From: Perkinsus chesapeaki | Taxonomy: Eukaryota; Perkinsozoa; Perkinsida; Perkinsidae | NCBI GenBank assembly: GCA_013115145.1 | Contig: JAAPAO010000297.1 | Coordinates: 1 to 41,771 of the forward strand | DNA: 41,771 nt | Reading direction: 5' to 3' | Position numbers and translations under genes: made by a program | The notes under the pieces: generated by a model | Database searches by the model: none | The model's input: the letters and a program-made list of their open reading frames with translations, nothing else | What the model was told of the DNA's origin: nothing | Part shown: positions 3,501-31,300 of the stretch, piece by piece | Layout: every line of letters begins with the position of its first letter | How positions within the stretch are numbered: the stretch's first letter is position 1

Positions 3501-6500
3501 AGAGGATGTCGCGGCTATTGTGACAAGCGGCTGGTCTTCTCCAACTTGATCGCCTTTATTAACATTAACTGCTGTGACCCTTCCCCCAACAGAAGTGGCA
3601 ACCTTTTGAGGGTGAATAATGAAAGTACGGTCGCATGTTATACCTCAGTCTGGGTCTTCATACTTTCTATAACCACGACAACATCCTCATCAGCTACTAT
3701 GTCACCAACTTTAACTTTCACATCGTAAATCACACCTATTTGAGGAGGCGACAGCTACGTTTCTTTATGTCGGCTCAGCTCTACCTGCCATGGGTGCGCT
3801 TATCGCCACTTCCTTCGTGGAGGTTTTATCTTTGATCATTTTTTCATCCTTGGTTGCCCCCTCCACCGCTGTCTTATTAGTCGCCATGTAATCCGTCAGG
3901 AATGATGTATAAACTTCACCCTAACTAGTGGGTCCACCAGTGGGTTACTCTTTAATCATGTTTCACCTGTTGCTCTGCGAATACTGGATGTGTTAGTATC
4001 TCTATCAACCTTGGTACATTTGTCCGCATGCCGGGTCCCTCCAGCCCCATGGTCTGAAAGCGAGGCTCCTCGTTTGCTTTCATTAAGGTGTATCACCTTT
4101 AGTCCATCGATGAGGCACTTTAGCGTCTCTGGCCAGTCCTTACCGACCCCGATGACCTTTACTAGGAGAGGGTCGAATTCTAGGCTCAGTCTGTAGGAAA
4201 CAGAAAAATGTCTCCGCCGAGGTTCGAACCCGGAACCGTTTCAGCATAAGCTATGGCGCGGCACAATACTTGTACTCTCGTTATCCCATAAACAACAGTA
4301 AGGCTAGTGATGTTCCCGTAAGACTACGGAAGCTACTGACAACAGTCTCAAGCTTGCCTACTCATATCGCAAGCTCGACATCAACGGCGCAAACAATGTT
4401 GGCGAACTTCAAATTTGGAACTTAGCCAACCGCCAAGGGGCTTGCGCACGCGTGCAAAATCCTCCATCTTACTTTTGCCCTTCGACTATCCCAAAATCGA
4501 CCCTCAGCCCGGGCAAATCATTAGGCACCGAAAACCTGAGCGACAAGGGAGCTTTAAATACGACAATGTGAATCGCAAAGATGGAGAATCTGATCGGTCA
4601 GATTTTGTGTTGCGCTAATATCCCCGCTGTCCCCCTCCTACACGGGAGGAGGCATCCTCTTGAATTTTCGAGTGTGGTGGAAAATTTTCAACGTCGAAGA
4701 ATCGCTCAACTGGCATAAAATACTTCCATTTTCGCGTGTCAGCGGTGCTCGTGACCTAGTTAAATTTAGTTCCTAAAAATGAATAATCCGTCCGACATCG
4801 AGACGGGAGAAAATGCTGGTGGTGGGCTGGAGAAGGTCGACTCCACCTCTACCGCATCTAAAGGTGCTACCGATAATGGAGACTTTGTGATTGAGGATGC
4901 TTCCTCCCCGAAGGATGTTATGCTGGATAAGACTGAGGATGATATCACACCAAAACCGGAGGATGCTCCCAAGAAGAGCAAATGTGATAAATTCAATTAT
5001 TGGTTATGTATGATATTTTGTTGTCGTCCACCACATGAGATGACAGATGATGAAAGAGCTGAATGGGAGAAGAAGAGCTTTTGGGATAAATACAAGGATT
5101 CTATATTCTGTTTTATCCGTTATTTCATAATGTTTATTATTGGTATTGGTGTTGGTATTGGTATATTCTTCCTTGTACTTTATTGTATGGGAATTATTGG
5201 TGGTACAAATGACAATAACAATACTTCTAATAATACCATAGATCTTGGTGAACTTGAGTATCCAAGAGTTGTTGCTGGTTATAGTAATTTAACAATTACT
5301 ATTAGTCCTGTTGCAAGTGCTTTGACATATGATCCAAAAGATTATCTTATTGAGACTCAAGTTGCCTCCTCCACTTCAAGTGGTAGTAGACGTCTTCGTT
5401 CTGATGGACCATGGACTGTTGCTCTGGAAATACCATATAATAAGAATGAGGCATCTACTGGTACCATTACTGGACTAACTGCTGGTGAACAGTTACTAAT
5501 CCGTTATAAGATTGAGATGGAGGATGGCAGAACTAGTAGCCCCTCCGTTGCCGTTATGGAGAACACCAAAACTCCAACTGCTCCAAGTGTCCCTGGTAAG
5601 GCATTCTACAGATGTCGGCGAGTGACTCTTTTTCTATTTCAGGTTTAATGGCATATAATACATCTTCAAGTAGCGTATCAGTTACTATCATACCACCAAC
5701 ACATAACAATGGTGCCGATATAACAGGATATGTTATCCAACATGCGGCCACCAGTGATAATAATACGACAACTGGTGAGTGGAGCAAAGCCGAGATATCT
5801 CAAGATGACGCTGCCAAGGTAATCGGTAACGCTTGAATAATTCACGTCAAGACTACCACTTTCAGCCTTATACTGTTGATGGACTGTCCTCCGGTGATCT
5901 GGTAATGTTCAAGATCTCCGCGGAGAACAGCGCTGGTTCAAGTGATTACAGTAAACCTTATTCGATGATCACCGATAATGCAGATGCTGATAAGCCTGAT
6001 CAGGTAAGGTTGGCTGTCGGATGGGTTAAAGAGGGTATTAAGTATTGCTTCGGATCAGGTTACTGGATTTGCTGCTAACTCTACCACATCAAACTCTGTG
6101 ACATTATCCTGGACCGCTCCATCTAATAATGGTGCTATGATTCTTAATTATATTATTAGTATGGATGGTAATGATAATACATATACTGTTGATGGTCATG
6201 ATACAAGTTATACAGTTAATGGACTTAATCGTGGAAGTGATTATACATTCTATATTACTGCTAGAAACTCAAAAGGTTATGGTCCTAAATCAGATGCTTT
6301 ATCAACTAAGACTACTGAAAGTTGTGAAGCTGATCAAGCAAGTAATGTTATGAGACAAACGCCATTCTCCGATGGTTTAAGTGTAAGCTGGAGTTCCCCT
6401 ACCAACCCACAATGTGATCTACCAATAACCGGTTATCGTGTTATTGATGATGATAATAAGGAATTATGTCAACCATCTACTAATGGTGCTCTTTGGTGTG

Positions 6501-8941
6501 ATATTACTGGTCTTCAACCAAGTACGTCATATACCATTAGAGTACAGTCTAAGAATGATGCTGGTTGGTCTAATAAAATTACATCACCTGTTAAAATGTC
6601 TACCATTGCTAGTGGTAAATGCAACAACCGTGACTCCGTTCGTTGGTGGGTATCTACTTCTAACCCAACCTACAGTGGTGAGGAGTTCACCAGCCAGATT
6701 GAGACATGTAGTGTTCAAGGACTCGGTAATCCGAACAAAGTTTCGAGCTGCCTGGTCGACTACACCAAGGACCCCTCCAAGACCCCCTTCAACTTGGACC
6801 CCATCTCCGATGACTGTGGTATGTGTTATGGTGCTAATGCCAAGTGCTCTATGGCACATTGTAGTTTCCCTTGTGGCATGGGTACCGCTGATAGCTCACC
6901 GGCCTGCTTACAGTGTAATGATCAATACTGTAAGCCTGACTTCTATACTTGCAGTGGTCTCTATGCCTCTATCGGCCCTCCCGATCCGCAGTAAGAATGA
7001 TGATGCGGCAGGAGCAGCTCAATCTTATCACCATTTATATCGTTTCTCGTTACTTTTCTGGTAGTGGTAGTGGTGGTGGCGTCCACCGTTACTGCTGCTG
7101 CCATGAGAATCAATTTTCGCTGTATAGATTTCTACCAGCAACGATCCCATAATTCTTTTCGACCAATGCTTACTGTTGCGTCGTCACCAACCCACTACTC
7201 ACTTCTCCACCATAGGCCCCCCTTTCCCCCCAGTTGATGATGGAGTCCATACCACTCTGGCCTGTATAGCACACTTTGCCTTTAATAGGTTAGGCAGTGT
7301 CGGATAAACAACTTTCAATGGCTCTCCTGAAAGCAATGCTGTTAGTAATCTCCCAAAGTAAATGTCTTCTATCTCTATGCTTCGGCCATTAAGCTCGAAA
7401 AAAGTTATTCAGATTTGACAAATGCCAGCCTTTACGCACTTGTCGAACATGACTTAATAACATTACTACTATTAGTAACCATCACTACGAGGAGCTCCTT
7501 CCCACAGCAATGCCCCTTGTCCCCTTGCTGGTTGTTGCCTACCTGCAGCCAACCTCATCTGTATCTGTACCAAGTCTATCCCAAATGCCTCCTCCGTCAC
7601 CGTGTGCTCCACTTGTATCCGAGGATTTACCTACCAAACTAATACGCGGGGGACCCCTTATTAATTACCTCTAAAAATATGAAATCCTCTCCTCCCTTGG
7701 CCATCAAGAACTCTACCGTTCCCACAGACACATAGCCCGACTTCTTCGCAAGGCCACACGCTGCCCTCAAGATGGCCTCCGGTATAGGTACCTGGCAAAC
7801 CAACCTGTATCCACTCATTACCTGGCCATCCTCACCTGCGGTGGAGCTATCTCAATCACTTTCTGATTCCTCAGCTGAACACTACAGTCTCTCGAGAAGG
7901 CATGGGACACTTCACCAGTACTATCACCCAGCACCTGTCGATGATGATGAGTTTGCACAATTAATATAAGCTGGATAATCAACAGTCAACTTCGCAGCGC
8001 TGAGCTACGGGGCTCATTAAGATCCCGAATTTCTAACTGGTGCGCATCTCTGAGCATCTAATAAATTCCACCGATTTTGCAGTTGTGTCTAAAAGTGCTT
8101 ACCTGAACTTCGATATGTTTGCTGTTTGCCCACCACTCCTCCACAAATACATCACCATTGCCGAATGAAGCTTTGGCTTCTGCAGTGCATCGCTCGAATG
8201 CTGCCTTCAGTCCGCTGGAGGATGTGACCTATATTAATCAAGATACTATACCGTCGGTCAAGACTCTCATACCACTCTCATTCCCCGTCCACCACCCCCA
8301 GCAGCGGCCTTCACCACTACTGGATATCTTAAAGCAAGTCTGGCAACCTCAGACTCGCAGGTAGACGCATCTTTAACTATCCCGGTACCTCAACAGGATA
8401 GAGTATCAGACTGCCCACCAACAGGCCGCAAGTTCGATCCCCGGGCGGTACCTTTTGACACAGGCACTTCACTTTCGATTGCCATCTTCCTTGCCGCTGT
8501 TTTATCACCGAATGCTCTCAGCACGGATGGTGCAGGTCCAATAAACTTAACCCCGACCTGCCGCATAACCCCTCCTCCTCCCCATTTGTCTTCGCATTAC
8601 CCTCGCACACGCCTCAGCCAAGTCCCATGACTCCGACAGGAAACCATAGCCAGGATGAAGAGCATCACACTCACTCTCCACCGCAGCTTTGGTGATGATA
8701 TCAACATCCAAATAAGCACGTACACCAGCACCGATACACACGGCCTTATCGCAAAGAGGTATGTGTGGGGCCATCTCCTCACCTGGTAGCTGAAGATGAC
8801 GATACACTATAGAGCGGACTTGCCTTCAACAAATACAGCAACACATTCACAGCCCAGAGCCCGGCATGCTCTCTGTATACGGAGGGCTATCTCACCGCGG
8901 TTGGCAATGAGAACCCTTGTGAAGGGAGGGGATGGAGCCAT
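550..8941 (-). CDS. Single-chain biotin-dependent acyl-CoA carboxylase (methylcrotonyl-CoA carboxylase type, BC-BCCP-CT fusion), many introns
   Basis: Start ATG at 8941 (MAPSPPF, then [17 protein letters not shown]); stop TGA at 550-552 after NNFGVFRM, a typical MCC-beta end. The biotin carboxylase part has HPGYGFLSE, the ATP-grasp loop [10 protein letters not shown] (near 8300), [14 protein letters not shown] and [14 protein letters not shown]. The biotin carrier follows, with ESMKTQTE and the biotinyl-Lys codon at 3656-3658. The carboxyltransferase has [70 protein letters not shown] and [17 protein letters not shown]. In plants and animals alpha and beta are separate genes. Here at least one splice path (donor near 3360 or 3415 to acceptor near 3255, both phase 1) keeps the frame across the junction. 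More than 20 introns, mostly 40-50 bp, have GT-AG ends. Roughly 35 residues normally found near the end of the BC domain are not visible. No clear mitochondrial presequence was seen. The likely pathway is leucine/branched acyl-CoA catabolism. Confidence 0.8.
4209..4262 (-). repeat. tRNA-derived 3' half next to a 3' splice site
   Basis: On the minus strand, a T-arm (stem CCGGG/CTCGG with one G-T pair, loop TTCGAAC, 4217-4233) is followed by CGGAGAC plus A, the layout of a tRNA acceptor 3' strand. B-box consensus GWTCRANNC is met. A pyrimidine tract and the splice acceptor at 4191 follow directly. No matching 5' acceptor strand was found within 80 bases, so this is a fragment. Confidence 0.55.
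4779..6994 (+). CDS. Single-pass membrane protein with fibronectin type III repeats and Cys-rich C-terminus, nested in a carboxylase intron
   Basis: Exons 4779-5595, 5643-5818, 5866-6003 and 6059-6994; the introns are 47, 47 and 55 bp with GT-AG ends and frame is kept, giving 688 residues. Residues 1-110 are acidic/polar and presumably cytoplasmic. One hydrophobic segment follows ([19 protein letters not shown], about residues 115-140), with no signal peptide, so an N-in/C-out topology is likely. The ectodomain holds about four FN3-like units; the recurring signatures are [34 protein letters not shown] and [16 protein letters not shown]. The last ~125 residues are Cys-rich ([11 protein letters not shown], then CNDQYC and CSGL). 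N-glycosylation sequons are frequent. A role in adhesion or surface recognition is inferred. The gene is wholly inside the intron 4191-7202 of the carboxylase, on the opposite strand. Many exon stretches are AT-rich compared with neighbouring genes. Confidence 0.85.
7935..8102 (-). repeat. Carboxylase intron carrying a tRNA 5'-half (A-box) fragment
   Basis: The intron lies between the exon ending HIEVQ and the exon starting [11 protein letters not shown]; it is 168 bp with GT-AG ends. On the minus strand at 7993-8014 it reads GCCCCGTAGCTCAGCGCTGC, the form of a tRNA 5' end with A-box TAGCTCAGC. No B-box follows, so only a 5' half is present. Confidence 0.45.
8377..8451 (+). repeat. 75-bp carboxylase intron consisting of a near-complete antisense tRNA-like unit
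   Basis: The exact intron (minus strand gtaccgccc to gggatag) joins VPVSK to [13 protein letters not shown] in frame. Read on the plus strand it is tRNA-like: GGTACC at both ends can pair as an acceptor stem, an A-box-like segment TACCTCAACAGG precedes GATAGAGTATCAGACT, and a B-box AGTTCGATCCC follows. The T-stem and anticodon stem pair poorly, so it is a decayed copy, in reverse orientation to the host gene. Confidence 0.65.
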
Positions 8942-9133
8942 CGAGCAAACTGACCATCCATTTACAAACTTAACTCGACTCCCAAGCTTTACAGGAACAC
9001 TAAAGTGATGGTGATGGTACAGACGGCGGTGATGGAGCTCTCAAGGAGTAATTTTCACAAAGACAAAACGGAAAATTATGAGGCTCGGTAGAAGGCTACC
9101 ATCCAACTCAATATTATAATTCAAATGAACTCA

Positions 9134-9150
9134 CCAGGGATCGAACCTGG
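9134..9150 (-). repeat. Isolated tRNA T-arm downstream of the RING gene
   Basis: Minus strand: a perfect 5-bp stem CCAGG/CCTGG around the 7-nt loop TTCGATC, identical in form to a canonical T-arm with a B-box. It lies 20 bp after the RING stop codon, in the likely 3' UTR. No 5' tRNA half was found nearby. Confidence 0.6.
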
Positions 9151-9169
9151 CTCTCCCATAATATAAACA

Positions 9170-11549
9170 CTACTTCTGTTCCCCTGGCGATGCTATTTGC
9201 AACATGGAGCTCACAGCTTGCCTGCATATCGGACACTTCGCAGATACATGGCCTGGTGTAGCCTCCTGGACTCGCTGAGAACATAATAATAACAACACCG
9301 ACTACTCCCTATCCACTTACCACAGCACAATCGTTACAAAGACACATATGCCGGCACGGAAGGACTACTGTTGTCCGAGGCTCACTCAGACAGATAACAC
9401 ATTCACTCGCCATGGCATCAGCCTCTTCATCGTAATCGACTAGTTTATTAACTTGCCCGATTGGCCCTGCTTCATCGCTGCTTGATTCCTCCTCAGAAGA
9501 TACTGGTGAATTTGACGTTCCATCGACAACTACTTTAAAAATGCCTCCACTGGGGATCGAACCTGCGACCACATTTACCTTTGCCCTCTACTGTATCTGT
9601 TCTATGTAGCTCCTCGTGTGGTATCATCCTTGGTGCGGCGGCCTCTATACCATATATATCATGAACATCGTAAGCTTGAGTGGAGAATAGCACCCTTTGC
9701 TTCAATACCTGATCATCAGAGCAATCGATCATACAGCAAAGAAGAAAACGGGCAGATTATCTGTCACAGATATGCCAACTTCTAGGCATTGGCATCTTCA
9801 GAGGAATTGATAGGAGATGATAATTGGAGACGAGAGCCGTCAGGTTGAGGTATCACTCTGGGGTACTTAAGGCTTCACGACAGCTCTGGGAGCATCAGCA
9901 GCACCGAGCCAGAAGGACACGAAAAAGTTACGGTGTACATTTTGAAACCAATGTTGCAGGTTGGGTGGAATACAAAGCGCCGTATAATAAGAAGATCCCT
10001 TACAACTTAGCACCCACTCATCTGACCAAGAATGTCCGCAAGAAGGCGATATTGTAAATTGAAGACCAGCATTAACGTACAAGACCATGGCACTCGGCAG
10101 GAAGAGCTCAAGTCCGACTACTTTGGACGAGGCATGATTGTTAAGTAGCATCCTATTCTCTCTCCCCCCCCCCCTCCCTTCGGCCCCCCTATCACCTTCA
10201 CATTCATCATAACATCAGACTCCTCTGCTGGTGGAAAGCTCAGATAGGTTAGTTGGCCCTATTAAAGATATGCTAGTAGGTATGATATTATATCCCTACT
10301 GTGCAGAACTCATGCAGTGCATTCTGAGTCGGTTCGGCTTTGCCTTCATAGGTCACCTCGATAACGGCTGGGTATCTATGGGAGCCTCTCACATAAGTAG
10401 TAGACGCCCACCCGGCAGGAAGGGGCTCTCGGCGATCCAGTCTCTGATCGGGGAATCTTTAGGTTAACCGTGCATGATACACAGAAGGTCCATCACTTCT
10501 TCCAATTTATCAGTAATCACTTCCTGTCCCAATCCAGCATGCGCTATGTCGTACGTGTAAGTCCGGACTGAAAACACCATCGACTCTTGTCACCGCAGTC
10601 GGTGAGTTCCCATTTTATTTCTTCAGTAGCCGAGGACACCCTTCTTACCTCCCCGGATCTCCGGGAGAGCTTCCTGTGAATTGCCCTCTACAAAATAATG
10701 CACTTTAACCGTACACGGCCCGCTGGTGTCCACCGCAAACCTCAACTTTGGTGGAGCATTTGGTCTGATCGGATATCTCAAGAAAGACTAACATTAACGG
10801 TAGGCTTACGCATCTTCTATGAGCTTGATGGTATCTTTTCGAATGTTGCATGGATTCTTAACAACACAAGTCTGTTTTATCTCAGGTATCGTCTGCATGC
10901 CATTAAACGGGCTATATGGTGCCGCCGCTCTATACGGCCTGATCAGCACTCTCACCATCCAATAGGTTCCTGGTTCGATCCTACCTCTCGTCATCTGTTG
11001 GTCCCTGAACATATCGACCGTCTCTAAACACGTACACTGGTCTTTGCTGGATTTGGGCTGCTGCCTGAGAAAGCGCGATAACAGGCCTAACCCTAACACG
11101 AGCCACTATTCACGAATGACCCTAGCACCTGACGTTGCTCTTGCTGTTGACGTAAAGGGGACTGGCCAGACCAATTTACCGTGGGCCACAGAGCATTACT
11201 GGGCTCCTGTCTAGGACCAAACGACTAATACCAATAACTATACCACTACAAACCAACAACAACATTACCGATTCTTGAGGAAGGCGTCGTTGCTCCGGAT
11301 GAGCCACGTTGGGAGGAGGAGCCTCTGCTGTAGCGGTACTAGTTGGTCTGGATATACCCATCCAAGAGACCGTTGGCCAGAGACTAAACCCTCCTGTACT
11401 GCCTCCTCCATCTCGCCGTCTAGGTTGTTGTTGAGAGACCTTACCAATAGCCTTACCACCCACAGCCCTACCCATAATGAGCCCCATACTACCTGGGACG
11501 ACCGGCCTCCTCCTGCTCCTCCTCTTTGACGTGATGAATTATTACCCAT
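9170..11549 (-). CDS. RING-HC E3 ubiquitin ligase, MGRN1/RNF157/LUL family
   Basis: Start ATG at 11549 gives [15 protein letters not shown], a candidate N-myristoylation signal as in family members. Stop TAG at 9170-9172 follows ASPGEQK. Recognisable exon pieces in order: [14 protein letters not shown] (~11000), [19 protein letters not shown] (~10830), [19 protein letters not shown] (~10720, the family's beta-rich domain), [19 protein letters not shown] (~9680, the conserved DIYGIE motif before the RING) and the C3HC4 RING ([22 protein letters not shown]) at about 9200-9410. Exon joins in the middle are uncertain. Two introns carry tRNA-like fragments (9533-9578 and about 10872-10984). The protein probably attaches ubiquitin to membrane-associated targets; the substrate is unknown. 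Confidence 0.8.
9533..9578 (-). repeat. 46-bp RING-gene intron built from a tRNA 3' half
   Basis: The intron starts gtaaatgtgg and ends ttttaaag, between exons reading HRTDTVEGK and VVDGTSNSP (phase 1, frame kept). Most of it is ggtcgcaggttcgatcccc followed by agtggaggcat, which has the form of a tRNA T-arm and 3' acceptor strand, in the same orientation as the gene. Stem pairing is imperfect; the B-box GTTCGATCC is exact. Confidence 0.65.
10872..10984 (+). repeat. RING-gene intron with antisense tRNA-like B-box
   Basis: The B-box (TTCCTGGTTCGATCCTACC, about 10967-10985) abuts the probable 5' splice site of a RING-gene intron, in antisense to the gene. The B-box 9-mer GTTCGATCC is the same as in the three neighbouring elements. 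The exact intron ends are uncertain because my exon phases do not close here. Confidence 0.45.
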
Positions 11550-11641
11550 AAGGTTACTCAAAACTGATAGTCTATTATAGCAATTGATCAACTCTACATT
11601 AATTTATTCTGACACCTCTAGCCACTACCATTGCATGCTTA

Positions 11642-12144
11642 TCAATCGTCTGGATTCTCCAATGGTGGAGCATACTCTTCAACCGCCCCTAAGATCTTTG
11701 GAGCGTTACAACCATCTACTTCAGCAACCAAATCGCCATCCTAAAGATACCATTATTTCCAAAAGGATCCGAAACCGACCTTATAAAAAAGAAACCGAGG
11801 GTTGCTGGTCGTCTGGAATTTCTCGGCATATTCGGCAACTGTTTGCCGATCAATTTGTATTAGGTCAACTCGATCATCAAAACCGTCCATATTGATCTGA
11901 GTAGGTGATGAAAAGATACGAAATGAGGTCGATTGCCTGAAGATTCTTAAAGGTCGGAATGATCTGTTGACATGGACCACACCAAGAGGTGTACACGTCC
12001 ACTACATGAAGTCTTTTATCGGTTTGGTCTTCGATAACGGTCCGGAATCTAAGGTTAAGATAAGGTACCCCACAGATGCTGATAATGGCATTACTGCTCC
12101 TCGTCAGAGTAGGTCGAAACGAGGTCCTTCTTAATCGCTGCCAT
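11642..12144 (-). CDS. Thioredoxin-fold protein, TXNDC3/NME8-like (axonemal dynein-associated type)
   Basis: ATG at 12144 (MAAIKKDL); stop TGA at 11642-11644 after ENPDD. Exon pieces: RTVIEDQTDKRLHVVDVYTS followed by the redox motif WCGPC and QQIIPTFKNL; then DGFDDRVDLIQIDRQTVAEY; then FQTTSNPRFLFYKDGDLVAE and APKILGAVEEYAPPLENPDD. The NPRFLFY block with cis-Pro position and the VDVYTSWCGPC block match the thioredoxin domain of TXNDC3/outer dynein arm light chains. About 125-130 residues, two or three introns; the first junction is unclear. A flagellar role is inferred from family resemblance and from the flagellar-type gene at 14.8-22.9 kb. Confidence 0.7.
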
Positions 12145-12395
12145 AACTACTGTCTTTACTGAAAGGAAAAGGAAAAATCACTGTTACCGCGCAGGATTTT
12201 TCTCGCGCGCCACAAAATTCAATGAAGAGACGAGGAAGGGTGTCTCTTATCTCTTTTGGGGCGCCTATCAACGTTCGTGGCTAAGAACTGGAGAATATAA
12301 TAAGCTCACCGATTGGTCTAACTTAAACAATACCTCAAAGGGGGCCAAGGATTTATTGTTCTACTCACTTTCTCAGAATCTTTACGACATCCATA

Positions 12396-14798: not shown

Positions 14799-17700
14799 GT
14801 GTCTGCTGCTGCTGGGCGAGCTTACCCACTGCACCCTTGCTCAACTCTGAGTTTAGGTGCTAGGAGACTGTCGTGGAGGGGGGGCTCTTGTGGGCTTAAA
14901 TGTATCATCGCATGGAGGCTGGGGAAGGATGTTAGCTATCATTATAGTGAGAAGAGTGTCTACTTTATATCTCGTGATGAGCTAGTGTTACCAATTTGGT
15001 GAGGGTGAATTGAGCTCGTTGTTAAACGGTGGCGTATTTGCCATGGCCGAGTGGTGTAGGATAGTTAACCTTGAAAGTATCTTTCTAATCTGACTTGTGT
15101 TTTATTAGTCAATGAAGAAGGTGTATAGACTTCAATGATAAACCCTCCATCAATCGAATCAACCTTTAACGGAGATATTCCAAGAGCCAAGAAAGAGCCT
15201 CAACGGGGGAGGGCAAGTCGACCTAAAGATACGCCTAAACTTACGTGAGCGCTTCAGGCCGAGATAGCATCTTTGGCCCTCTGGACCTCCTCCACGGCCT
15301 CTTCTGGTAGAAGCAGCCTGACCTCTGATGGCATGCGTCACTTTCAACTACTAGTGGTCCATGCTCTTTTGGGTGGGGCACTGACGGACCCTTTGAACCC
15401 ATCAAGGAGACGGAGGCTTTGTGATAGGATGGCTCAAACTGAAATTGATCTCATCACTGATGGTGATGAAGGTAAGGTTGCCTACCCCCGTGCTTCGAGG
15501 CCTTCAACTAGGCATGGTTATCGACTACGCTATATTTTCCCGATGGCTCCGGGATGTGGTGAAGGCATGGACACCTTCCGGGCAAGAGTAAGCCAATCTC
15601 ACACTACCTCATCGAAGACTGTACGTACAGGCCTGCACAGCTCCTAGAAAAGATTCAAAACAAGGTCGCTTCAGCGCCCCAAGCCTCAACCTTGATGGAG
15701 CAGCCATCGTTACTGGCCGACCCGATGGCGGTAGAGCCTTTCTTCTGGGCTGAAGAGGCCTTCGTGGAGGAATGCTCCTCTGAGTTGCTGTCTACTGCAC
15801 ACAAGGCAGCAGTAGAACTGAGACGCAGGGTCGCCGAGGTTGAGAATCCAGACCGGCATAGGGCTTTGATACGGTTCGGAGAGGTTCATCAGGGACATAC
15901 CGGAGAGGATAAGGATGCTATTGAGAGGAGTGATCATCAAGAGGTAAGAAGGTAGCAAGTGCTCCAGCTACAACAGTGTCCGGTCAGATCGCCGTGGTGG
16001 CTTCATTGACCTTGGTGAAGCTGGCCAGGGAGGCGTCGGGTGTTAAAGAAGTAGAAGGGAGAGATGTCGGCCCTTCCGTGGAGCTGTTGGCTATGAGCAG
16101 CAGGATGTGCGCTGCCCCAGGGGCTTTGTTAAAGAGTGATGAAGAGCCATTATTTGGTGTTTGTCGAAGTAAACCAATCTGTATGATGATAACAAGTAGA
16201 GGTTCGAGTGGGAGGTCAGCTACAGTGGAGAGGGTATGTAGGCTACTAGCCACTGGTGAGGTCCGAGGGTTCAAGCCGTCGGATGCTATTTGGCAGGCCC
16301 CAATGGACTCCAGCTCATCTCACCTAAATACACCTTAGAGGTCGCCATGGCCACACCGAGTAATCTTCGTACGCCACTGCAGCGATGGGCTGCGGAGGAA
16401 CTGCAGAAAGGAGAAGAGCTAACGCTGAAGGTGAAAGGAGGCTGGAGTAGGCTTCAGACTGGACCGAGGAATTTTACAAATTATAGTCAACACTCTATTC
16501 GAAAAAATTCAGATGTGGAATTAAAAATTAATATTTGCGCTCAATCGTTGTTTGTCAGATTGTGTTGGATTGCATGCTTGAAATGATTTGTCGAAGTGCC
16601 CGATGCCAACAGATTGGATTTGTTATGGAAATACCGGAGCCGATGGATGCTGAGCAGGTGAGGGGTGGGTAGAGTTAGTGATCAGGGATGGTGACAGGCG
16701 GTGGTGATACGACAATGGATGGCAGAGGTACAGGAGCTATCCAAGAAAGATACGCTAGAGGTTGATAGGATGTTCATGCCACCATCCGGAGGAGAGCGGG
16801 GAGAGGTAAACCCTTGGGGCAACTTGGAATAGCTACTCGACTCTAAAAATACGGTGAATTAACAGCTAAAGTTAGAGAGCGGCGAATCCTAATATATTAC
16901 GGCTGGAGTGGTAAAGGGAATCGACGCAATCCTTGGACACGCCAATGCCATTATGGGATAGTACCATCGCATGGTCTGTGATGGAGTAGTAGTCGTAATA
17001 GCACTTCGGAGGGTGACAGGAATGCAATGAGGGCTCAGGGTTACCGCAGCAGCAGGATGTCTTATAACCATTCACACGTTAGAGCTATTGGGAATGTTAA
17101 GCATGTTTGACCACGTAGGTGTGGTGATGCATTTTAGGAGGTTGAAGTGGGTAAGAGCGATTGGCCGACTCCTAACCCTCTTGCATTGGTCTGGCCGACA
17201 GTACAACACATTTGTATCGATCTAGCTGGTGAGGGTGGAGTGGTGGTGGATAGGGATACTGGGGGGGAGGTCACGTCACGGGACATACAGAGGTCAAAGG
17301 CCATGCTGGAGGATATCAAATTGAGGATGAGAAGGGCCGAAGAGAATCCAGATGATGATGAGGTGGTGATACGGATGGTGACAGGAATATGCTGCTTGTC
17401 AGGTCCCAGCTGAGGTAGATGAGGAGGTTCAAAGAGCGTTGAGTGGTCGATGGATGGAAGTGCCGGAGGAAGGTTTTACTGGGTTGGATGAAGCAACAGA
17501 TACCTTGGAGGCCATCGCCAAGGAGTACTTCATGGATACTGTCAAGAATGACATCTTTACCTGTTTGGATCTGCACAGGGGTGGCCATTGGTTGGGTAGC
17601 GGGCACGAGAGTGAGGCATGGCAGTTGATAGAGCGATTGGCAAATGCAACAGAAGCAGCAGCAGTGGCATTGGAAATCGGGGATGTCCCTGATGGGGTGG

Positions 17701-22958: not shown

Positions 22959-23116
22959 TGAATAAAGATAGTCGTGGTTGTTAATAGTAGTTGTTGAGTT
23001 AAGCAGCACTGTCGCAGTCAAAAAACGAGAAACGTGAAACGCTTCGCTCCGCCTAAAATCGTTCGTGCGCTATGGAAGAACGCCACGACATCGTCTATAC
23101 CGACATCTCCATCATA

Positions 23117-24430
23117 ATGTTGTCTCAGAAGGCCACTTTGAACGACCTGCCCGAGTCCGATATGAAGGGCAAGAGGGTGCTTATGCGTGTTGACTTCAAC
23201 GTCCCTATTAAGGACGGTAAAGTTGCCGATAAGACCCGCATTGTTGCCACCATCCCTACTATTAAGAAGGTCTTCCAGATGGGTGCCAACAGCATCGTCC
23301 TCATGAGCCATTTGGGCAGGCCTGAGGGCAACAAGGTCGAGAAGGTAAGATGCTGAGTTAGGAAATATCAATATCGTATCTTGCTTTAGTACTCCTTGAA
23401 GCCCGTGGTCCCCGTCCTGTCTGAGCTTGTCGGCCATGAGGTGACCTTTGTTGATGACTGTGTTGGTGAGACTGCCATCAAGGCTTGTGCCAACCCTGCT
23501 CCTGGCAGCATCATCCTTCTTGAGAATCTTCGTTTCCATATCGAAGAGGAGGGTAAGGGTGTTGTCAACGGTGAGAAGGTTAAGGCTTCCCCCGAGGCCG
23601 TGGCCGCCTTCAGGGCCGACCTCACCAAGCTTGGTGATGTCTTCATCAACGATGCTTTCGGAACTGCCCATCGTGCCCATTCCTCTATGGTCGGTGTCCA
23701 GCTTCCCATCCGCGCCGCTGGTCTCTTGCTCGCCAAGGAGCTCCAGTACTTCGGCAAGGCCCTTGAGAACCCAGAGCGCCCGGTGTTGAGCGTTTTGGGA
23801 GGCGCCAAGGTTAAGGATAAGATTCAGCTTATTAACAATATGCTTGATAAGGTTGATATGATGATCATTGGTGGTGGTATGGCTTATACTTTCATCAAGA
23901 CCCTCTACAAGACCCCTATTGGCAACTCCTTGTTCGATGAGGAGGGCAGCAAGATCGTTCCTGATCTTATGAAGAAGGCCAAGGAGAAGGGTGTTGAGAT
24001 CCTCTTGCCTGTTGACTGGGTTTGCGCCGATGATTTCGATAACAACGCCAATACCAAGATCTGCACCATGGAGACCGGCATTCCTGATGGCTGGGAAGGC
24101 CTCGATGTTGGTCCGGAGTCGACTAAGCGTAATCTAGAGATGGTTAAGAAGGCCAAGACCATCATCTGGAACGGTCCTCAGGGTGTCTTCGAATTCCCTA
24201 ACTTCGCCAAGGGATCCTTCGCCCTCCTTGACGGTGTTGTTGCCGCTACCAAGGCCGGTGCTACCTCCATCATCGGTGGTGGTGATACCGCTGCCATGGT
24301 TGAGCAGCAGGGCAAGGCCGGTGATATCTCTCACGTCAGTACCGGTGGTGGTGCCTCTTTGGAGCTCCTTGAAGGCAAGCAACTTCCTGGTGTTGTTGCC
24401 CTTACTGATAAGAGCCAGCTTTCAGCCTAA
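23117..24430 (+). CDS. PGK: Phosphoglycerate kinase
   Basis: Exons 23117-23344 and 23390-24430, with a 45-bp GT-AG intron; 422 residues, close to the usual ~415. I chose the ATG at 23117 ([20 protein letters not shown]) because it aligns with the family start; an in-frame ATG at 23072 would add 15 residues. Catalytic signatures: RVDFNVP (substrate Arg), [49 protein letters not shown] and GGGDTAA (nucleotide binding). It transfers phosphate from 1,3-bisphosphoglycerate to ADP in glycolysis. No targeting extension is obvious, so it is probably cytosolic. Codon choice is more GC-biased and even than in its neighbours, as expected for a highly expressed gene. It lies 158 bp downstream of the adenylate-kinase-like gene. 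Confidence 0.97.
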
Positions 24431-24660
24431 TAACATTTATCGGCAGCCTTGAAGACTGCTGCTTTAGATGATGATGATAGCAGCGGTTGTCCAGCGATTA
24501 CTACTGTCATTGTCGTTTTCACGATTATTGAGTGATTCTCGTCATCATTACACTGCGTTGCGCTACTAGTGGTAAAGCGGCACACAAAAGGGGACAGCGG
24601 AGGAGCTGGAGACGGAAGGACCATTGAAGCGTTGATTGATTTGTTGCCTTCCCTACCAAG

Positions 24661-25818
24661 ATGGTCGTTAAGAATCGTAAGCCTGCTGCTGCTGCTGAAA
24701 CCGCCGCTTCTGTCGGCGGCGCTGCTGGTGGAAGTGCCGTGCCCAGAGGGTTGGAGGGTGTGTACAACTGCTGGATCGAGCCACATCTGGAGGCCCTCAT
24801 GCCATATATCAGGGCCGCTGTGCCGATCATAGAAAGTATTGTCAAGAAGATGCAAGCCATTTATTTACAGTATATCAAACCAAACTGGCATGACGGTCTT
24901 GGTGACTTCTGCTTTGCTGTGTTGTTGCTGTTCTTCGGTGGACAGTTCGCTCTCACTATTTTGGCCTGGGGTGCATTCCAGCAGGCTGGTGGTGGCATGA
25001 TAAAGAGGGCGTGGAAGGAGCTTAATACGGAGTATGTTGACAGTATGAGGAAGCTTCAAGAAGATCCAGAGGCGAAGGCTCTGTTCGATCAAGATAAGGA
25101 CGGTGAAGTATCTATTGGGGAGGTAAGAAGCGTGTAAGATACTTCGGAGGTCGATTCGTGTGCCAGGTCGCCACTGCAGTGTCGTCTGTGATCGGCGCTG
25201 ATACTCCTGAGGAGAAGCAGAAGGCTCGTCGAATGATTGGCGCCACTATGAGGTGTGTCGACCCAAATCGCCTCTTGGATGCTATCACGGGATTCTGGGC
25301 TGGTCTAGTGGCTGTTATTGCTGCGCTAAGGTCTCAGTTGGCGGCCTGTGTCTCTGTTGGGGCATCTATTGGTCAGAAGGGTGCTGAGTATGCCAAGGAC
25401 TACCTCGAGAAGCCGCTTTATGAGAAGTTCCCCGATTATAAGGATTGGGTGGATGCTGGTCTGAGAGCTGGTTGCTCACTTATCGGTATTCTCGTCAGCC
25501 TCTTTATGGCTCGGATCGTTACTGCCTTCAACTGTGCTATAAAGGGTGCACAGAAGCTCGCAGGAATAGCTATTAAGAAGGCACATGAAGCTGGATATCT
25601 GACCAATGTGAAGGATAACGGCTCGAAGGTTCAAGCGTTGGCGATGGGGCTTACCGCAGTTGGGTTGTGGTATCAGGTAAGGTTAATGAATCAACCTTTT
25701 GTGAATCTTCCCGTCTTTTCAGTTCTCATCTGGATTCTCCTGCCCTACTCTGTTAAAGTTGGTGTTATTCCCATTGCTCATTTCGGAGAACATCCTCACT
25801 CTCATCGCCGCGATGTAG
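24661..25818 (+). CDS. EF-hand multi-pass membrane protein of unknown function
   Basis: Exons 24661-25122, 25167-25676 and 25723-25818 (introns 44 and 46 bp), giving 355 residues. After an Ala-rich start there is a hydrophobic segment (FCFAVLLLFFGGQFALTIL, ~85-103). One canonical EF-hand loop follows (DQDKDGEVSIGE, about residues 143-154), and the first intron lies directly after its last Glu. The second half has further hydrophobic segments (AITGFWAGLVAVIAAL; GCSLIGILVSLFMARIVTAF) and amphipathic Lys/Ala helices. I prefer the spliced end (LLKLVLFPLLISENILTLIA) because it is hydrophobic and lies behind a good GT-AG intron; unspliced read-through would instead give a polar tail to 25889. It probably senses Ca2+ at a membrane. 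Confidence 0.75.
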
Positions 25819-26904
25819 ATACTTTAACAACAACAGATGATGATAATGCTGCCGTCGAACAGAAGGCTGTCAAGATTAATATCGATTAGTTTGTTAAACC
25901 TAGTAGTGTTGTTGTTGTCATGGGAAGGGTATCTTTAGGTCGGATTGAGATCCCCCGTAGTTACTTGCTAATATGCTCACTCATCTGTACGCTATTTAGG
26001 AGGCTGCTGTTTGGAGATGAGTGGTTGTAAGGGTTGTAATATCCCCTCCGGTGTCTTTGATTTCTTTGGCTTCGTTTTCATCTGTTGTATTATTTAGCAA
26101 TGTTCTGGGGGGCCCTCAGTGAGGTAGGTCGGTCAATTACATTCTTACCAAGTTGAGTAATTCGACCTCCATTTTGAGATGGCATGTTAGCCCTTTCGTG
26201 AACCTTACCGAATCGACATTGCCGAAGAGCCTCATCCAGTTTGTTACGGCGGCGGCGCCACACTGCCTCCAATTGGCGTCTTTCATAGGGCGTCATTTCC
26301 CACGCCGATCAGCAGCAGCCGCCTCCTGGATTCGGTATCTGGATAGAAGCCTTCTATTAGAAGGGCTCATCCATGAGGTGCTCCTAAGTATTATTATCAT
26401 TTAATGACACTAGTGTTGAAATGTGCCATGTGCAGCAGATGTATCGGAGTGTTGTGAAAGCGTCCAGGCTGTGTGGGTATGTTGGCTCGGGTAAAATACG
26501 GGCAGCACTAAAATTGTAAGTTGATTGCTGCAGATGGAATAGATTTTTGTCGATACGTTGAAATTCGGCCTAATAATGCCCGGGAACCCGTCCGATTCGA
26601 TCGAACTAGTTTTCTGAATTCGATTAAGGGTGTGTAGTAGAAGCTGTTTCCTTCAGCACGCCGCCAGCCAGTGTGAGGCGGACATGCGACTCTTACCTTT
26701 GTAAATGATGGGTGTTATCAATTTGGGAGGTGTGTTGCCACCTCGCCCGTCACTTTGCTGTGACAGCAATCTGGAAGCGCCGCCGTCTTTATTAGACGAC
26801 CGAGGGTTATGAGGTGTCGAGTGTTGATGGAGCTGGTAAGGAGATACTATTGCCGTCGACTGTAGTCCGTTCAAGAGGTTTGGCGTAGGTGCAACTTATC
26901 GACA
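25819..26904. other. Intergenic stretch
   Basis: Apart from a possible small minus-strand frame at 26090-26296, I see no gene, repeat array or RNA gene before the tRNA-Arg at 26905. The region around 26500-26880 is of mixed composition, with stops in all frames. Confidence 0.4.
26090..26296 (-). CDS. Small basic hypothetical protein
   Basis: A 68-residue frame from ATG (MTPYERRQLEAVWRRRRNKL) to TAA; an in-frame stop lies just upstream, so this ATG would be the start. It is rich in Arg and has a predicted helical N-terminal half, followed by a polar tail (ANMPSQNGGRITQLGKN). It could be the last exon of a longer gene. I do not recognise it. Confidence 0.3.
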   Translation of the reverse strand: MTPYERRQLEAVWRRRRNKLDEALRQCRFGKVHERANMPSQNGGRITQLGKNVIDRPTSLRAPQNIAK

Positions 26905-26976
26905 GACCTCGTGGCGCAATGGAAGCGCGTCGGTTTCCGGAGCCGAAGGTTGCGGGTTCAAGTCCCGCCGGGGTTA
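26905..26976 (+). tRNA. tRNA-Arg (anticodon CCG)
   Basis: 72-nt cloverleaf. The acceptor stem GACCTCG/CGGGGTT pairs 7 of 7 (with G-U pairs) and the discriminator is A. The D-stem is GCGC/GCGC, the anticodon stem TCGGT/GCCGA with loop TTCCGGA (anticodon at 26937-26939, reading CGG), and the T-stem GCGGG/CCCGC with loop TTCAAGT. No intron. A T4 run directly after the gene (26977-26980) serves as Pol III terminator. It is the only intact tRNA gene I find; compare the tRNA fragments in nearby introns. Confidence 0.95.
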
Positions 26977-27350
26977 TTTTCTTCCGATTGGATTTACATC
27001 CGCCACCATGCAAGGGAACCGACCTTGATTATTGAGTGTAGGTCTATGTTTCATAGAGCGAATTCTAGGACGAGGTGGAGCAAGCTAGCGCATGATCACG
27101 AAACGGCGGGGACGAGCGCGGAGGAGGAGTAGATCTGAGTTATTGTGATAGCTGACAGGACGATATTAATCGGGCATTCCAAACACTAGAAGTGTAACCA
27201 ATGAGCAGCGAGTCCTCCTATGTGCATCATTACAGTCACGCGACCTCGACCAACCGCTCCCCGCCATGTCTGGCGTGACTTCCATTATCCATTTCCCCAC
27301 CTTATCCTGTTGAGTTATGATCCCAGTTATGATTATCTATGTTAGTTGAT

Positions 27351-27794
27351 ATGGGGATACTGTCTTGGGAGATATTTAAAGTGAGCGAGGATAAGCCACA
27401 TCGGAAGGGAAATGACTGCAAACGGATCAAATCAGATCTGGTACGTCCCCCCTCCCCTTGCTGTTGAGTAGCCCCCAGTGGTGGCATTCAGGTCCAGTGT
27501 ATGAAACAGACTCCCTGTTGGAAGAGTGGTGCAATGTTTGAAGAGTGTATGCAGTCTAAAGATCCAGCATGGGTGAGTGGAGGGGCAACTCTGCCAGGGC
27601 TCGGGTATCTCTCCGACAGCTCCTCTGAAATTACCGCCTTGGCGGCAACATCTAAAATGCTCGGGAGGCCTGCGGTAGGTTTGATGATTGATCAGGTGGC
27701 CAAGGAATGCATGCATCTTCGAGATGCCTATATGCAGTGCCGAAAGTGTCTGATAGTCCCGAACCTCAGATTATACGGTAACCCATTTTCTTAA
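27351..27794 (+). CDS. COA5: Cytochrome c oxidase assembly factor 5 / PET191-like twin-Cys protein
   Basis: Exons 27351-27440, 27492-27572 and 27696-27794 (introns 51 and 123 bp), giving 89 residues. The protein has CX9C spacings: C-KRIKSDLVQ-C, C-WKSGAMFEE-C and C-MHLRDAYMQ-C, and ends with NLRLYG, like the RFRG end of the family. Size and Cys layout match the PET191/COA5 proteins of the mitochondrial intermembrane space, which are needed for complex IV assembly and are probably imported by the MIA40 disulfide relay. The last residues could change if a further intron starts at the final GGTAAC. Confidence 0.75.
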
Positions 27795-27831
27795 GGAAAT
27801 CAGTCTGGGTGTACATGGTTTCTGTTCTTGC

Positions 27832-28047
27832 ATGTTGATTTGGATCTCGGGCCTCTGCTCCTTGTTCGCTTGGTGTTTCGGTTTAATGGTGTCTACGAGG
27901 AAGAGGGAGAGGGCTAAGCAGGAGCAGCAGCAACAGCAGCAGGCTGCCTCGGCGCGCAAGAATAAGAAAAAGAAGGATGAAGTCCCTATGGTCGAGGACG
28001 GGTATGATGGGATGGAGGCTGATACTGCGTGGGGAGGTGGCTCTTAG
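27832..28047 (+). CDS. Small signal-anchor membrane protein
   Basis: 71 residues: a hydrophobic N-terminus (MLIWISGLCSLFAWCFGLMV) followed at once by basic residues, a poly-Gln run, a Lys-rich stretch (ARKNKKKKDEVP) and an acidic tail. This suggests a single N-terminal anchor with a cytosolic tail. It starts 38 bp after COA5. It could be the first exon of a longer gene, because possible GT donors lie near its end. The family is unknown. Confidence 0.45.
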   Translation: MLIWISGLCSLFAWCFGLMVSTRKRERAKQEQQQQQQAASARKNKKKKDEVPMVEDGYDGMEADTAWGGGS

Positions 28048-28398
28048 GTGGAGGTGGCCTGAAGAGGAAGAAGGTCTGTTGGTGGTGGATACCAAGACTA
28101 GGACAAGAAACAGGTAGTAGGGCTTCTGTCAGACTGTGGCTTGTCCTCCCCAGAAGGAAGGTATCTTGTATTTGGTCTTTCATTAGATGAGTCAGCATGT
28201 CATGGAGGAGCATGAGATATTCCTAATAGGAATGCGTCATCTGACGCTCCCTTCCGATCTAAGCACATATTTCCTATCAAAGTTCCTATTGTATTTCATT
28301 TTTGTGATGTTAGATGGCATATTCCGGAGTATAATATTCTTTATTATATTCCCACCTACTTGAGTCATTGCCTGTTTTATGCCATTTCTAACCCTCAG

Positions 28399-31300
28399 AT
28401 GCTTCAATAGCATCGATAAGGTTGACGACTCGGGTGAAGTAGAATACACTGTCAAGGTACCAAGTACCATGACGTGTATTGGTGATTCAGGTTGGTGTAG
28501 GTTGGTGATTTAGTGGTGACACTATCGAATGAGGAAGCAGGAGCTGATCTAAGATTAAATTATTGGGTCGCAGTAGCCTCGGCACTTTATCAAGATACGT
28601 AAGCCGATAAAGTCATCGCCTGTGGGGAGAGGGCCTCCCTCAAGCCCTCGGAACTGCCGACTCAAACTCTCGATCGGTGCCTTCGGAAATGGCATTGAAC
28701 TTGATTGCATCAAATTTTCTGATTCCATGTATGCGCAGCGCATGGAACGCATGATGCGCTCCTACGTACCTCATGAGAATGGGGCGCGCCTCTCAACATC
28801 GCTGGTGAAGGCCGCAATCATAAAGTTGCTTGGAGGGCTTCTGTGTCATCATCATCATCAGTAGCACTAGTAGGCATGGACGTAGTATCATTTACACTGT
28901 TTTAATCTGTGGGGTATTCATTCACCTGTGTTGATGATGATGTCATCGTTCTCAGATATGGGGCCAAATTCGTGACTTTGAGATTTCTTGATTCCTTTGA
29001 GGAGTGGGCATACACCAATTTCGACACAGGTGGGCTCATCCCTGCACTCCGCAACAACCGCACTGGTAAGATTTTGTAAGATTCTCGTATGGTGAAAGAA
29101 GCGTTCGAGGCGAGTCGCCATCTGCCTGGCATCTTCGTGGAGACTGACGTATGTGAGGATGACGAAGTTGATGTCATCCAAGGGAAGGTAAAGGACGGGC
29201 ATGCCGAGCTCGGGAGGTCTACTGCAGCTCCTGGGAACCTACTTACTATTATATCTCCGCAGTGGTACCATTTCGTACTCGGCACGGATCGTCATGCTCG
29301 ACCGGGAGCGATGTCTCGTTGTTAGATTGACATCTGGGCCGAAACAGAAGAGGAGTACCTTTCTCTCATCGAAGCTGGCAGGAGTAGGTTAACCTCGGTT
29401 GGTGATAAATGCCTCGGAAGAATCTTTCAGGGCCGCATAAAGCGAGCGTCGACCTCGAGCACTTGTGCAAAAATGGCAAAGTCAAGTTCGTGGATGCGCC
29501 TCGGCGTCGTCGGAATGTCCATTGGAAGCCGGACACACTGACTGAGGACACCGTTCCACAGGCAAGCTCCCGAACCTGTTCGTGTGCGGGTGATGGGCTG
29601 ATGTGAAGGTTGTGTATACTAATCGATTGGTTATAAGATGTGATGAGGAAGGCAAGCGAGTTGAGCACAGCGACACGCTTTGGCCGGCACCACCAGAATC
29701 GAGAGTGCAAAGGGGAATTAGGTAGCCCTGTAGGAAGCTCCTCGGTTGCTGAACGTTATCAGATTTGCTCCTCTGATGAAATGCTCCCTCTGCTCTGTCG
29801 ACCCTAAATTGCGGGGGGAGCTGCTCGAGGGCAAGTCCAGTGGCTACGCGATCGTCGATGAGGATTCTCCTTCAGCTGGTAGTCTCACCGTCGGGCCGCC
29901 AGTGCTTTGTCAATATCTTTTTTAGATGAGGACGCCCGTCTGAAGGCAGCGGTCGACGAAGTGTCGGAGGCGTTCGATGAGGCTGCTAAGAAGCTCCAGC
30001 TCTCCGAGGTCCCCAAGGCAGGCAGCCTTGATAACTCACCGGCGGCACTTGTCTTCATTAGTGTCTCACCTGCCGCGAGGAGGAGCGCGGTCAGATCTAT
30101 AATTTTCTGTGGACTGCCGTGAGCACTGGTGGAGCTGGCAACGTACTCTACATCTCGGGGATGCCTGGCACTGGTAGAGTCCTCTGCAGTTGGTGAGTAT
30201 CTGTCTTGCAGGGAAGACTGCCAGTGTTATGGGTGTTGTTGGTGAACTGAAGGGAATGATGGCCGAGAGGAAAGTCCCTCCATTCAAGTTCATCTACATT
30301 AATGCCTTCCGTCTGGCCACTCCAAACGACCTCTTCAAGTGGGCGACCGTATCGTACACCGAAGTTAGGTGAGCGCTGTTCTTTAGGGAACTATACAACG
30401 CGCTGGAGGTCGGCCCCCCGCGGGTGTCAGCTGCAGTAGCTCACGAGAAGCTAGAGGCATATCTGAGGAAGTCAAGTGCCAATCTCGTCTTGTAAGGGGC
30501 ACAGGTTCGAATCCCATCGAGGGTATCTTTTAGAATAGTTGTTATCGATGAGCTTGACTATTTGGTGACAAAGCAGCAGAAGGTTCTCTATTGCCTTTTT
30601 GACTGGCCAACCCTGCCAACATCTAAGCTGGCTGTAGTGGCCATCGCCAACACTATGGACTTACCTGAACGGATGATGCCTCGAGTGGCATCGAGGGTAA
30701 CAAGAATCTAAGCTTCACCGCGCAAGATTCATCTTAGCTTGGATTCGGGCGGCTCAATTTCGGCCCATATTCCGCACAACAAATTGCGGAGATAATAGAG
30801 CAAAGGATGAAAGAGTGTGGAGGAGAGTCCGTCTTCGAGAGGTGGGCAGTTGTCATTATCTTCCTTCTTCAATCGCTACCAGCAATGCGATAAAGCTATG
30901 CGCCATGCGGGTGGCATCGGTGTCTGGGGATGTCCGGAAGGCCCTCCACATCTGTCGAAGGGCCATTGAACTACGTAAAGACGGCTGCAAGGTGGGGAAA
31001 TGACATCGACTGGATTGGTATCTTTTGGAGAGCAGGTCACACCGGCCGAGATCGCAGCAGCACAGAGCGATACTTTTATTAGCCCCCTCACCGACAAGGT
31101 CTCCTCGCTCCACACATTTCAGTTCCGCTTTATGCTTGCTTTCATGCTGCTCCTTCGAGCGCAAAAGACACCGCAAGTGAGGGAGGGGCTGGGGTTCGAA
31201 ACCGGGACCTGTCGATTGTCCATTTTCAGTCGATAACGTTGCATGCTCTGTACGAGAAGGTGAAATCGCTGTCCTACCACCACCCGCCGAAGGGATATAA

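Follow-up and report, generated by a model that had tools for sequence, protein, structure and literature searches.

Copies of the 3' end of tRNAs are dispersed in the intron-rich genome of Perkinsus chesapeaki, and many short canonical introns of ordinary genes consist mostly of such an element. We consider it likely that these dispersed copies became spliceosomal introns on landing in genes, in a way that resembles intron creation by introners.

tRNA 3' ends in introns of the window

The window, i.e. the whole stretch of 41,771 nucleotides that was analysed, contains the following features.

30492..30533, + strand: ORC1 intron of 42 nt, just 5' of the Walker B motif (gene finder); sense tRNA 3' end with the T-run adjoining the AG acceptor
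31177..31229, + strand: ORC1 intron of 53 nt in the C-terminal part (gene finder and profile); sense T-arm and ...CATTTTCAG
9530..9578, - strand: intron in a gene labelled as RING-type in the initial annotation, 49 nt long, or 46 nt if the nearer AG is used (gene finder); sense tRNA 3' end with A-TTTTT; profile score 39.6, the highest in the window
10939..10984, - strand: predicted intron of 46 nt (gene finder and profile); antisense T-arm adjoining the 5' splice site
8389..8451, - strand: biotin carboxylase intron of 63 nt (protein homology); a tRNA-like sequence in antisense that is almost complete and includes parts resembling an A-box and a B-box
16256..16296, + strand: predicted intron of 41 nt (gene finder); weaker sense T-arm (GTTCAAGCC) with a profile score of only 7.3
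4205..4238, - strand: tRNA 3'-end element, after which come TTTTTCTGTTTCCTACAG and the carboxylase frame; profile score 33.2; intergenic according to the gene finder
9122..9155, - strand: tRNA 3'-end element outside predicted genes; profile score 27.6
26905..26976, + strand: intact tRNA-Arg(CCG) gene (64.6 bits), given for comparison and not part of the finding; no other was found in the window

The gene finder was self-trained and made for this analysis, and some introns were missed or misplaced by it; for example, the biotin carboxylase intron at 8389–8451 was wrongly set at 8377–8418.

The initial annotation of the window had listed nine intervals with A-box or B-box sequences as lying in introns. 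Six of these coincide with introns, five from the gene finder and one from protein homology, whereas the A-box-only intervals did not hold up: 7993–8014 lies within a 103-nt low-confidence predicted intron and 15040–15060 lies in no predicted intron. A-box pieces in introns are unsupported, because the dispersed unit is the tRNA 3' end only. The interval 4209–4262 contains a clear tRNA 3' end with a T-run and CTACAG downstream of it, although no surrounding intron could be made out. The fourfold occurrence of the 9-mer GTTCGATCC that had been pointed out was confirmed; all four occurrences in the window fall at 8.4–11.0 kb, compared to 0.17 expected from shuffles.

Judged from the sequence, reading frame and homology require that the element introns are removed as canonical introns. 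In ORC1, the unspliced frame at 30492–30533 has a stop, and splicing joins ANLVL to the following 10 residues; the alignment to ORC1 from the PDB continues across this junction, with a gap of two residues that lies three residues ahead of it. When the second ORC1 intron (31177–31229) is spliced, the frame stays open into the next 20 residues. Splicing of the biotin carboxylase intron leaves the frame open over 14 residues, retention brings in an in-frame TGA, and the alignment to pyruvate carboxylase spans the junction, close to which it has a gap of one residue. Apart from these two genes of the window, homology crosses the splice junction in kinesin, acyl-CoA dehydrogenase and poly(A) polymerase (antisense), and Pfam matches run across it in a K+ channel gene and in Syf1 (L127). 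Furthermore, of 45 element introns, 37 would cause a frameshift or introduce a stop if they were retained.

Dispersal and intron enrichment

In the whole 35.4 Mb genome, the tRNA 3'-end pattern GTTCGANYC-N11-ATTTT has 607 matches, compared to three for the reversed pattern. When the pattern is required to be flanked by GTRAG and AG, 118 matches (a count that takes in nested matches) stand against none in the reversed control. Best matches to the PGK of this genome come mainly from alveolates; among the 120 listed of 8000, they include Chromera (70%), Vitrella and apicomplexans, and the topmost carries the label Ancylostoma caninum (61%).

We then compared elements to random sites. Among sampled elements outside intact tRNA genes, which are the first in contig order (contigs C1–C68) rather than a random draw and cover about 70 of 100 places listed out of 1256 in all, 34 of 76 lie inside introns predicted by the self-trained gene finder. 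The corresponding fraction is 4.9% for 3209 random 25-base sites, where introns make up 9.7% of the bases, and it reaches 13.6% once partial overlaps with introns are counted. Of the 607 strict matches, 82 make up the strict sample, which includes two elements of the window; the gene finder labelled 34 of the 82 as lying in predicted introns, 38 as intergenic and eight as coding. When the splice models were reduced to GT/AG, introns contained 16 of these 82 elements, compared to 2.9% of 3253 random sites. The per-base density of elements in predicted introns is about five times that in intergenic DNA. One locus (L117) was off-centre, so that its target element was not covered.

For the sense orientation, we kept by hand one version per place among the 100 matches listed of the 118, which resulted in 87 element introns. 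These have subfamily structure, with 109 similar pairs (at least 13 of 17 columns) compared to 51 in column-shuffled sets.

The shared block lacks the tRNA 5' half

The block common to the copies covers only tRNA positions ~42–77, roughly 35 nt, and lacks the tRNA 5' half and the A-box. Its boundary at about position 42 is alike in intronic and intergenic copies. We observed no excess of A-boxes upstream of intronic (3/51, compared to six in the reversed control), intergenic (3/46, compared to five) or coding-labelled copies (1/15, compared to two). A-box-like words in predicted introns (9/412, compared to four in the reversed control) are not convincingly enriched; the nine include two real tRNA genes.

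Six loci with intact tRNA genes were removed before T-stems were counted and before later profile building. In the remaining 76 elements, T-stem pairing is at or below the shuffled level (below it at 49–65), and the mixed set shows no co-variation. In the 87 element introns, 49–65 is the sole T-stem pair above the shuffle (48 compared to 38). Since T-stem pairing is not kept, the copies are either old or were never derived from intact tRNAs. The paired acceptor and T-stem cloverleaf of a functional tRNA gene is absent from the elements. We rejected intact tRNA genes nested in introns as an explanation.

Splice signals and length of the element introns

The initial annotation had claimed that the tRNA 3' end abuts the 3' splice site in sense insertions and that the element abuts the 5' splice site in antisense ones. 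Both claims hold as tendencies. The AG directly follows the T-run in 22 of the 87 sense introns, and in the others it lies further off, ending within 16 bases in 87 of 87, a distance that is limited by the search pattern itself. GTAAAA(A)T, which complements the T-run, opens four of eight antisense introns. The donor is usually located within the tRNA-like block. Its most frequent distances to G53 are 12 and 18, and donor-like words can occur at these positions in tRNAs themselves. We found no excess of matches for direct repeats, such as target-site duplications, at the splice sites of element introns; further out, there is a weak excess that is not clearly above same-locus controls.

Element introns, here taken as introns with GTTCRANYC, of which a few may be chance words, have a near-ordinary length of 48 nt compared to 46 nt for other introns and are slightly longer (p 0.012). 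Three loci (L014, L020 and L028) were left out of this class because tRNA genes lie there. With a flat-length gene model, the length range is wider in both groups and the medians are 53 and 48 nt. The near-ordinary length implies that the element accounts for most of the intron.

Origin of the element introns

We suggest that tRNA-precursor 3' ends (about the variable loop, T-arm, 3' acceptor strand and Pol III T-run; roughly 35 nt) were copied throughout the genome, and that spliceable copies inserted into genes became spliceosomal introns. In the sense orientation, the donor bases would come from the tRNA, either as GTAAG in the anticodon loop or as GT with the variable-loop AGGTC, and the Pol III T-run would act as the polypyrimidine tract ahead of the AG. 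In the antisense orientation, the complement of the T-run could yield the donor GTAAAA. Dispersal and subfamily structure suggest that the element is mobile. The missing 5' part and the terminator-anchored 3' end point to copying via RNA. The intron was presumably created by the insertion itself. More tentatively, and with somewhat less than an even chance, the unit copied into genes may itself be a short fragment from the 3' end of a Pol III tRNA precursor, probably copied via RNA (retroposition or RNA-templated break repair) and spliceable at once, which would amount to tRNA-based intron gain. An insertion could be spliced at once because the tRNA 3' end is a near-ready mini-intron, with a donor in the anticodon or variable loop and the T-run as polypyrimidine tract. 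The initial annotation had proposed that a tRNA-derived element creates introns or that tRNA sequences are recruited as introns; the roughly fivefold intronic density, the near-ordinary length and the donor inside the block agree with this, whereas the A-box (5') pieces drop out of the proposal.

Alternatively, the introns might be older, and tRNA 3'-end copies inserted into them or replaced part of them, followed by shrinkage to a tolerated tight length. We consider this the strongest competitor, albeit an unlikely one. It is favoured by the narrow range of intron lengths in the genome and by the kinesin family. The kinesin gene at L123 has an intron with tRNA content. At precisely this position, its paralogue at L179 is interrupted by an ordinary intron of 48 nt, and the kinesin intron may therefore predate its tRNA content. 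However, the close paralogue L181 is uninterrupted at this site and several other kinesin paralogues also have no intron there. Furthermore, an insertion would lengthen an intron by ~33 nt, an excess that element introns do not show, and the donor often lies inside the element, in L123 even at G53–T54. For acyl-CoA dehydrogenase, matches in seven other places cross the site of the element intron; all of these are distant (32–49% identity). Searches for paralogues of the K+ channel and of the L121 protein did not help to decide between the readings.

It is improbable that the elements belong to a tRNA-derived SINE superfamily, as decayed SINE heads that are enriched in introns only through the intolerance of exons. 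The genome does contain two longer dispersed B-box repeats (12 and 20 matches including the query), and subfamily structure would fit as well. Yet the copies have nothing in common 5' of about position 42 and show no excess of A-boxes, which a SINE would carry together with a B-box in its tRNA-like 5' region. Their density in introns is high compared to that between genes, and the boundaries of the introns coincide, or nearly so, with those of the shared block.

Still less probable is that selection has preserved the B-boxes, be it for TFIIIC binding (ETC-like sites) or because functional pieces of tRNA are carried by introns. Intronic and intergenic copies do have the B-box core and its flanks in common, where the core was also the search criterion, but they also share part of the acceptor 3' strand (positions 70–72), which a bare B-box does not need; matching 5' halves were not found, and T-stem co-variation is absent from the mixed set. 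Lastly, chance words in coding or intron sequence, although some GTTCGATCC matches are plain coding sequence (e.g. L001, L005 and L006), can be rejected from the window shuffles, the reversed-pattern counts and the shuffled introns, where no T-arm matches reach a score of at least 12 in either orientation compared to six sense and four antisense matches observed, some of which are intact tRNA genes; the initial annotation had proposed this comparison.

Significance and comparison with known systems

How new spliceosomal introns originate is an old question, and intron-generating transposons are the known large-scale route. tRNA 3' ends are present in every eukaryote. Many introns of this genome are recognisably marked by such an end, with splice signals that can be deduced from tRNA anatomy. 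If introns were created in this way, close relatives or strains should have empty sites, and a Pol III terminator could double as part of the 3' splice signal. Among open-licence PMC papers, we found no description of tRNA-derived introns or of such a source of new introns.

Published introner families are mostly consistent with DNA transposition (TSDs in 49/130, TIRs in 72/177; PMC9860276), and the words 'tRNA' and 'SINE' are absent from the main text of that paper. Like introners (PMC9860276), the Perkinsus elements form many short canonical introns in unrelated genes, with a common sequence and splice signals that are partly borne by the element; they differ in that this common sequence comes from a tRNA 3' end and that no direct repeat was found at the splice sites. 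Repeated introns are also known from introner elements of the alveolate Amoebophrya, a parasitic dinoflagellate (PMC7789003). These have inverted and direct repeats and largely form non-canonical introns, whereas those described here are canonical GT-AG introns with a tRNA T-arm; both mentions of tRNA in that paper concern tRNA synthetases (PMC7789003).

Similar to tRNA-derived SINEs, of which SINE-like B-box repeats also occur in this genome, our elements are dispersed, tRNA-derived and contain a B-box and a T-run. In contrast to SINEs, they have no A-box or 5' tRNA part and no common tail past the T-run, and they share only about 35 nt. We know of no case where tRNA retropseudogenes or tRNA 3' halves form introns. 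With these and with other tRNA fragments, our elements have in common that they are truncated tRNA copies; they differ in that the 3' T-run is kept rather than CCA and that the copies make up introns.

Repeated tRNA 3' ends in the genome

The 9-mer GTTCGATCC, reported as repeated by the initial annotation, indeed occurs four times in the window, with 0.17 copies expected. We searched the dense eukaryotic genome (35.4 Mb assembly, 884 contigs; the window is G000:C220:1-41771) and found 1256 copies of the word compared to 196 of its reversal. Since some of these matches are coding sequence, we adopted a stricter pattern, GTTCGANYC, 11 bases and ATTTT, in which tRNA position 53 and the discriminator base are as far apart as in a tRNA and a Pol III T-run follows. 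This pattern yields 607 matches (strict elements) compared to three for the reversed pattern. The genome probably belongs to an alveolate-like organism, as the protein matches of its phosphoglycerate kinase include Chromera, Vitrella and apicomplexans, with up to 70% identity.

When aligned on G53, the copies have tRNA positions ~42 to 77 in common. The shared block consists of the variable loop (A)AGGTC, the T-arm, G70, G71, C72, A73 and the T-run, where positions 53-58, 61 and 73-77 are imposed by the search pattern and the other shared positions are independent of it. Positions 66-69 are near random, and no sequence is common to the aligned copies upstream of position ~42. The T-stem pairing is not maintained in the elements, and the A-box shows no excess over the reversed control, neither in introns (3 of 51 compared to 6) nor in intergenic copies (3 of 46 compared to 5). 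The limits of the block, the A-box counts and the unpaired T-stem indicate that the elements, as judged from their sequence, are tRNA 3' ends, decayed or of many origins, rather than tRNA genes. Among element introns, 109 pairs are similar (at least 13 of 17 columns) compared to 51 in column-shuffled sets; thus, subfamilies exist.

Two longer dispersed repeats (12 and 20 matches) that carry a B-box are also present in the genome. In these SINE-like families, the B-box and T-run lie within a longer conserved unit, and identity to the query is 72-85% (loci L157 and L159-L170) and 82-92% (loci L148 and L171-L178).

A tRNA model search of the genome scored at least 62 tRNA genes. On contigs C328 and C440 several tRNA-Arg genes that hardly differ from one another are clustered, and many of them have the anticodon TCT (loci L010, L012, L013, L015-L017, L025 and L027); at L079:133-267 ARAGORN calls a tRNA-Arg with an odd long insert rich in GGTCC repeats.

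To estimate abundance, we used 70 kb around tRNA genes, a sample picked independently of the elements; the window, picked for the finding, is richer. With intact tRNA genes excluded, six copies score at least 18, one of them intronic among the 114 introns predicted there. This suggests very roughly 3,000 copies genome-wide and tRNA content in ~1% of introns.

Location of the elements in introns

Introns were called by a purpose-written gene finder that was trained on the fetched sequence. It predicted 108 introns in the window, and over all fetched loci the predicted introns have GTRAG donors and a median length of 46 nt; such extreme shortness and uniformity may restrict which elements can turn into introns.

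Predicted introns contain 34 of 82 strict elements, of which 26 have sense and 8 antisense orientation to the host gene; of the others, 38 are intergenic, 8 are labelled coding and 2 are partly in introns. None of the 34 intronic elements comes from the six sampled loci where intact tRNA genes bear the pattern, and without those loci the fraction is 34/76. Random 25-base sites from the same loci (n=3209) are fully intronic in 4.9% and partly in 8.7% of cases. Per base, the elements are ~5 times as dense in introns as in intergenic sequence (34 in 9.7% of bases compared to 38 in 52.5%). With the splice models flattened to bare GT/AG, 16 of the 82 are intronic and 18 labelled coding, 2.9% of 3253 random sites are intronic, and the density ratio is ~3 (16 in 6.9% compared to 43 in 57.1%). 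Furthermore, the pattern GTRAG-element-AG has 118 matches genome-wide, a number that includes nested matches (87 distinct places among 100 matches listed), compared to 0 for the reversed pattern.

The initial annotation had placed nine tRNA-like intervals in introns of the window. Six coincide with predicted introns that have T-arm content, whereas the A-box-only intervals 7993-8014 and 15040-15060 have no statistical support. One real element has no placed intron:

4205-4238, tRNA 3'-end element

This element lies in a region (600-9000) where the minus-strand carboxylase gene is apparently interrupted, from ~7200 to 4200, by a plus-strand FN3-type gene (~4780-7000, from frame reading); a nested gene in a long intron, an insertion or a misassembly are the options. 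The carboxylase piece after the interruption begins directly past the element. At 1-366 lies what is apparently the 3' end of a second FN3-type gene, a paralogue, with a resemblance by eye to 6600-7000.

Evidence for splicing

If retained, 37 of 45 element introns at the fetched loci would cause a frameshift or stop. Spliced peptides of a kinesin (L123), a poly(A) polymerase with an antisense element (L136) and an acyl-CoA dehydrogenase (L054) align over the junction with solved homologues. The alignments of ORC1 (30492-30533) and biotin carboxylase (8389-8451, antisense) also cross the junction, with a gap three residues before it and a one-residue gap nearby, respectively. Among ten spliced peptides scanned with Pfam, the match spans the junction in the same kinesin, polymerase and dehydrogenase, a K+ channel (L048) and Syf1 (L127). 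For Syf1 at L126, TFIIS-like L114 and L153, the family was matched without clear support at the junction, and L044 and L115 had no Pfam match.

Splice signals and origin of the introns

The donor lies within the tRNA-like block or at its edge. Its distance to G53 peaks at 12 (15/87), where the variable-loop bases AAGGTC come after GT, and at 18 (13/87), where the donor is at the anticodon loop, as in an intact tRNA-Thr(AGT) reading GTAAGCGGGAGGTCG. In 22 of 87 element introns AG directly follows the T-run, which may serve as part of the acceptor signal, and 4 of 8 antisense introns start with GTAAAA(A)T, the T-run complement. By its sequence, a tRNA 3' end would be a near-ready intron.

We consider it fairly probable that tRNA 3'-end copies are a source of introns. 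The rival explanation is that content was replaced inside older introns. Element introns are slightly longer than others (median 48 nt, n=53, compared to 46 nt, n=359; p 0.012); a ~33-nt element inserted in an existing 46-nt intron would total ~80 nt. The splice sites of element introns show no direct repeat, and the direct-repeat excess farther from them is weak.

The kinesin L123 intron begins at G53-T54 itself. In the close paralogue L179, three introns occupy the positions seen in L123, the middle one without tRNA content; another close paralogue, L181, has no intron at that middle site and reads through, and matches to several more distant kinesins are likewise continuous over the element-intron site. 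This pattern fits either a gain in the L123/L179 ancestor followed by decay or replaced content of an ordinary intron. These three paralogues, with some intron sites shared and some not, are a ready system for intron dating. For the acyl-CoA dehydrogenase, seven other places, all distant (32-49% identity), are continuous over the intron site.

Comparison with known introns

We found no description of tRNA-derived introns in the open-licence PMC literature. In a large introner survey, the families reported are mostly DNA-transposon-like, and its main text mentions neither tRNA nor SINE (PMC9860276). The reports on Amoebophrya (PMC7789003) and Amorphochlora (PMC12730881) deal with different cases from the tRNA 3'-end introns that we describe here.
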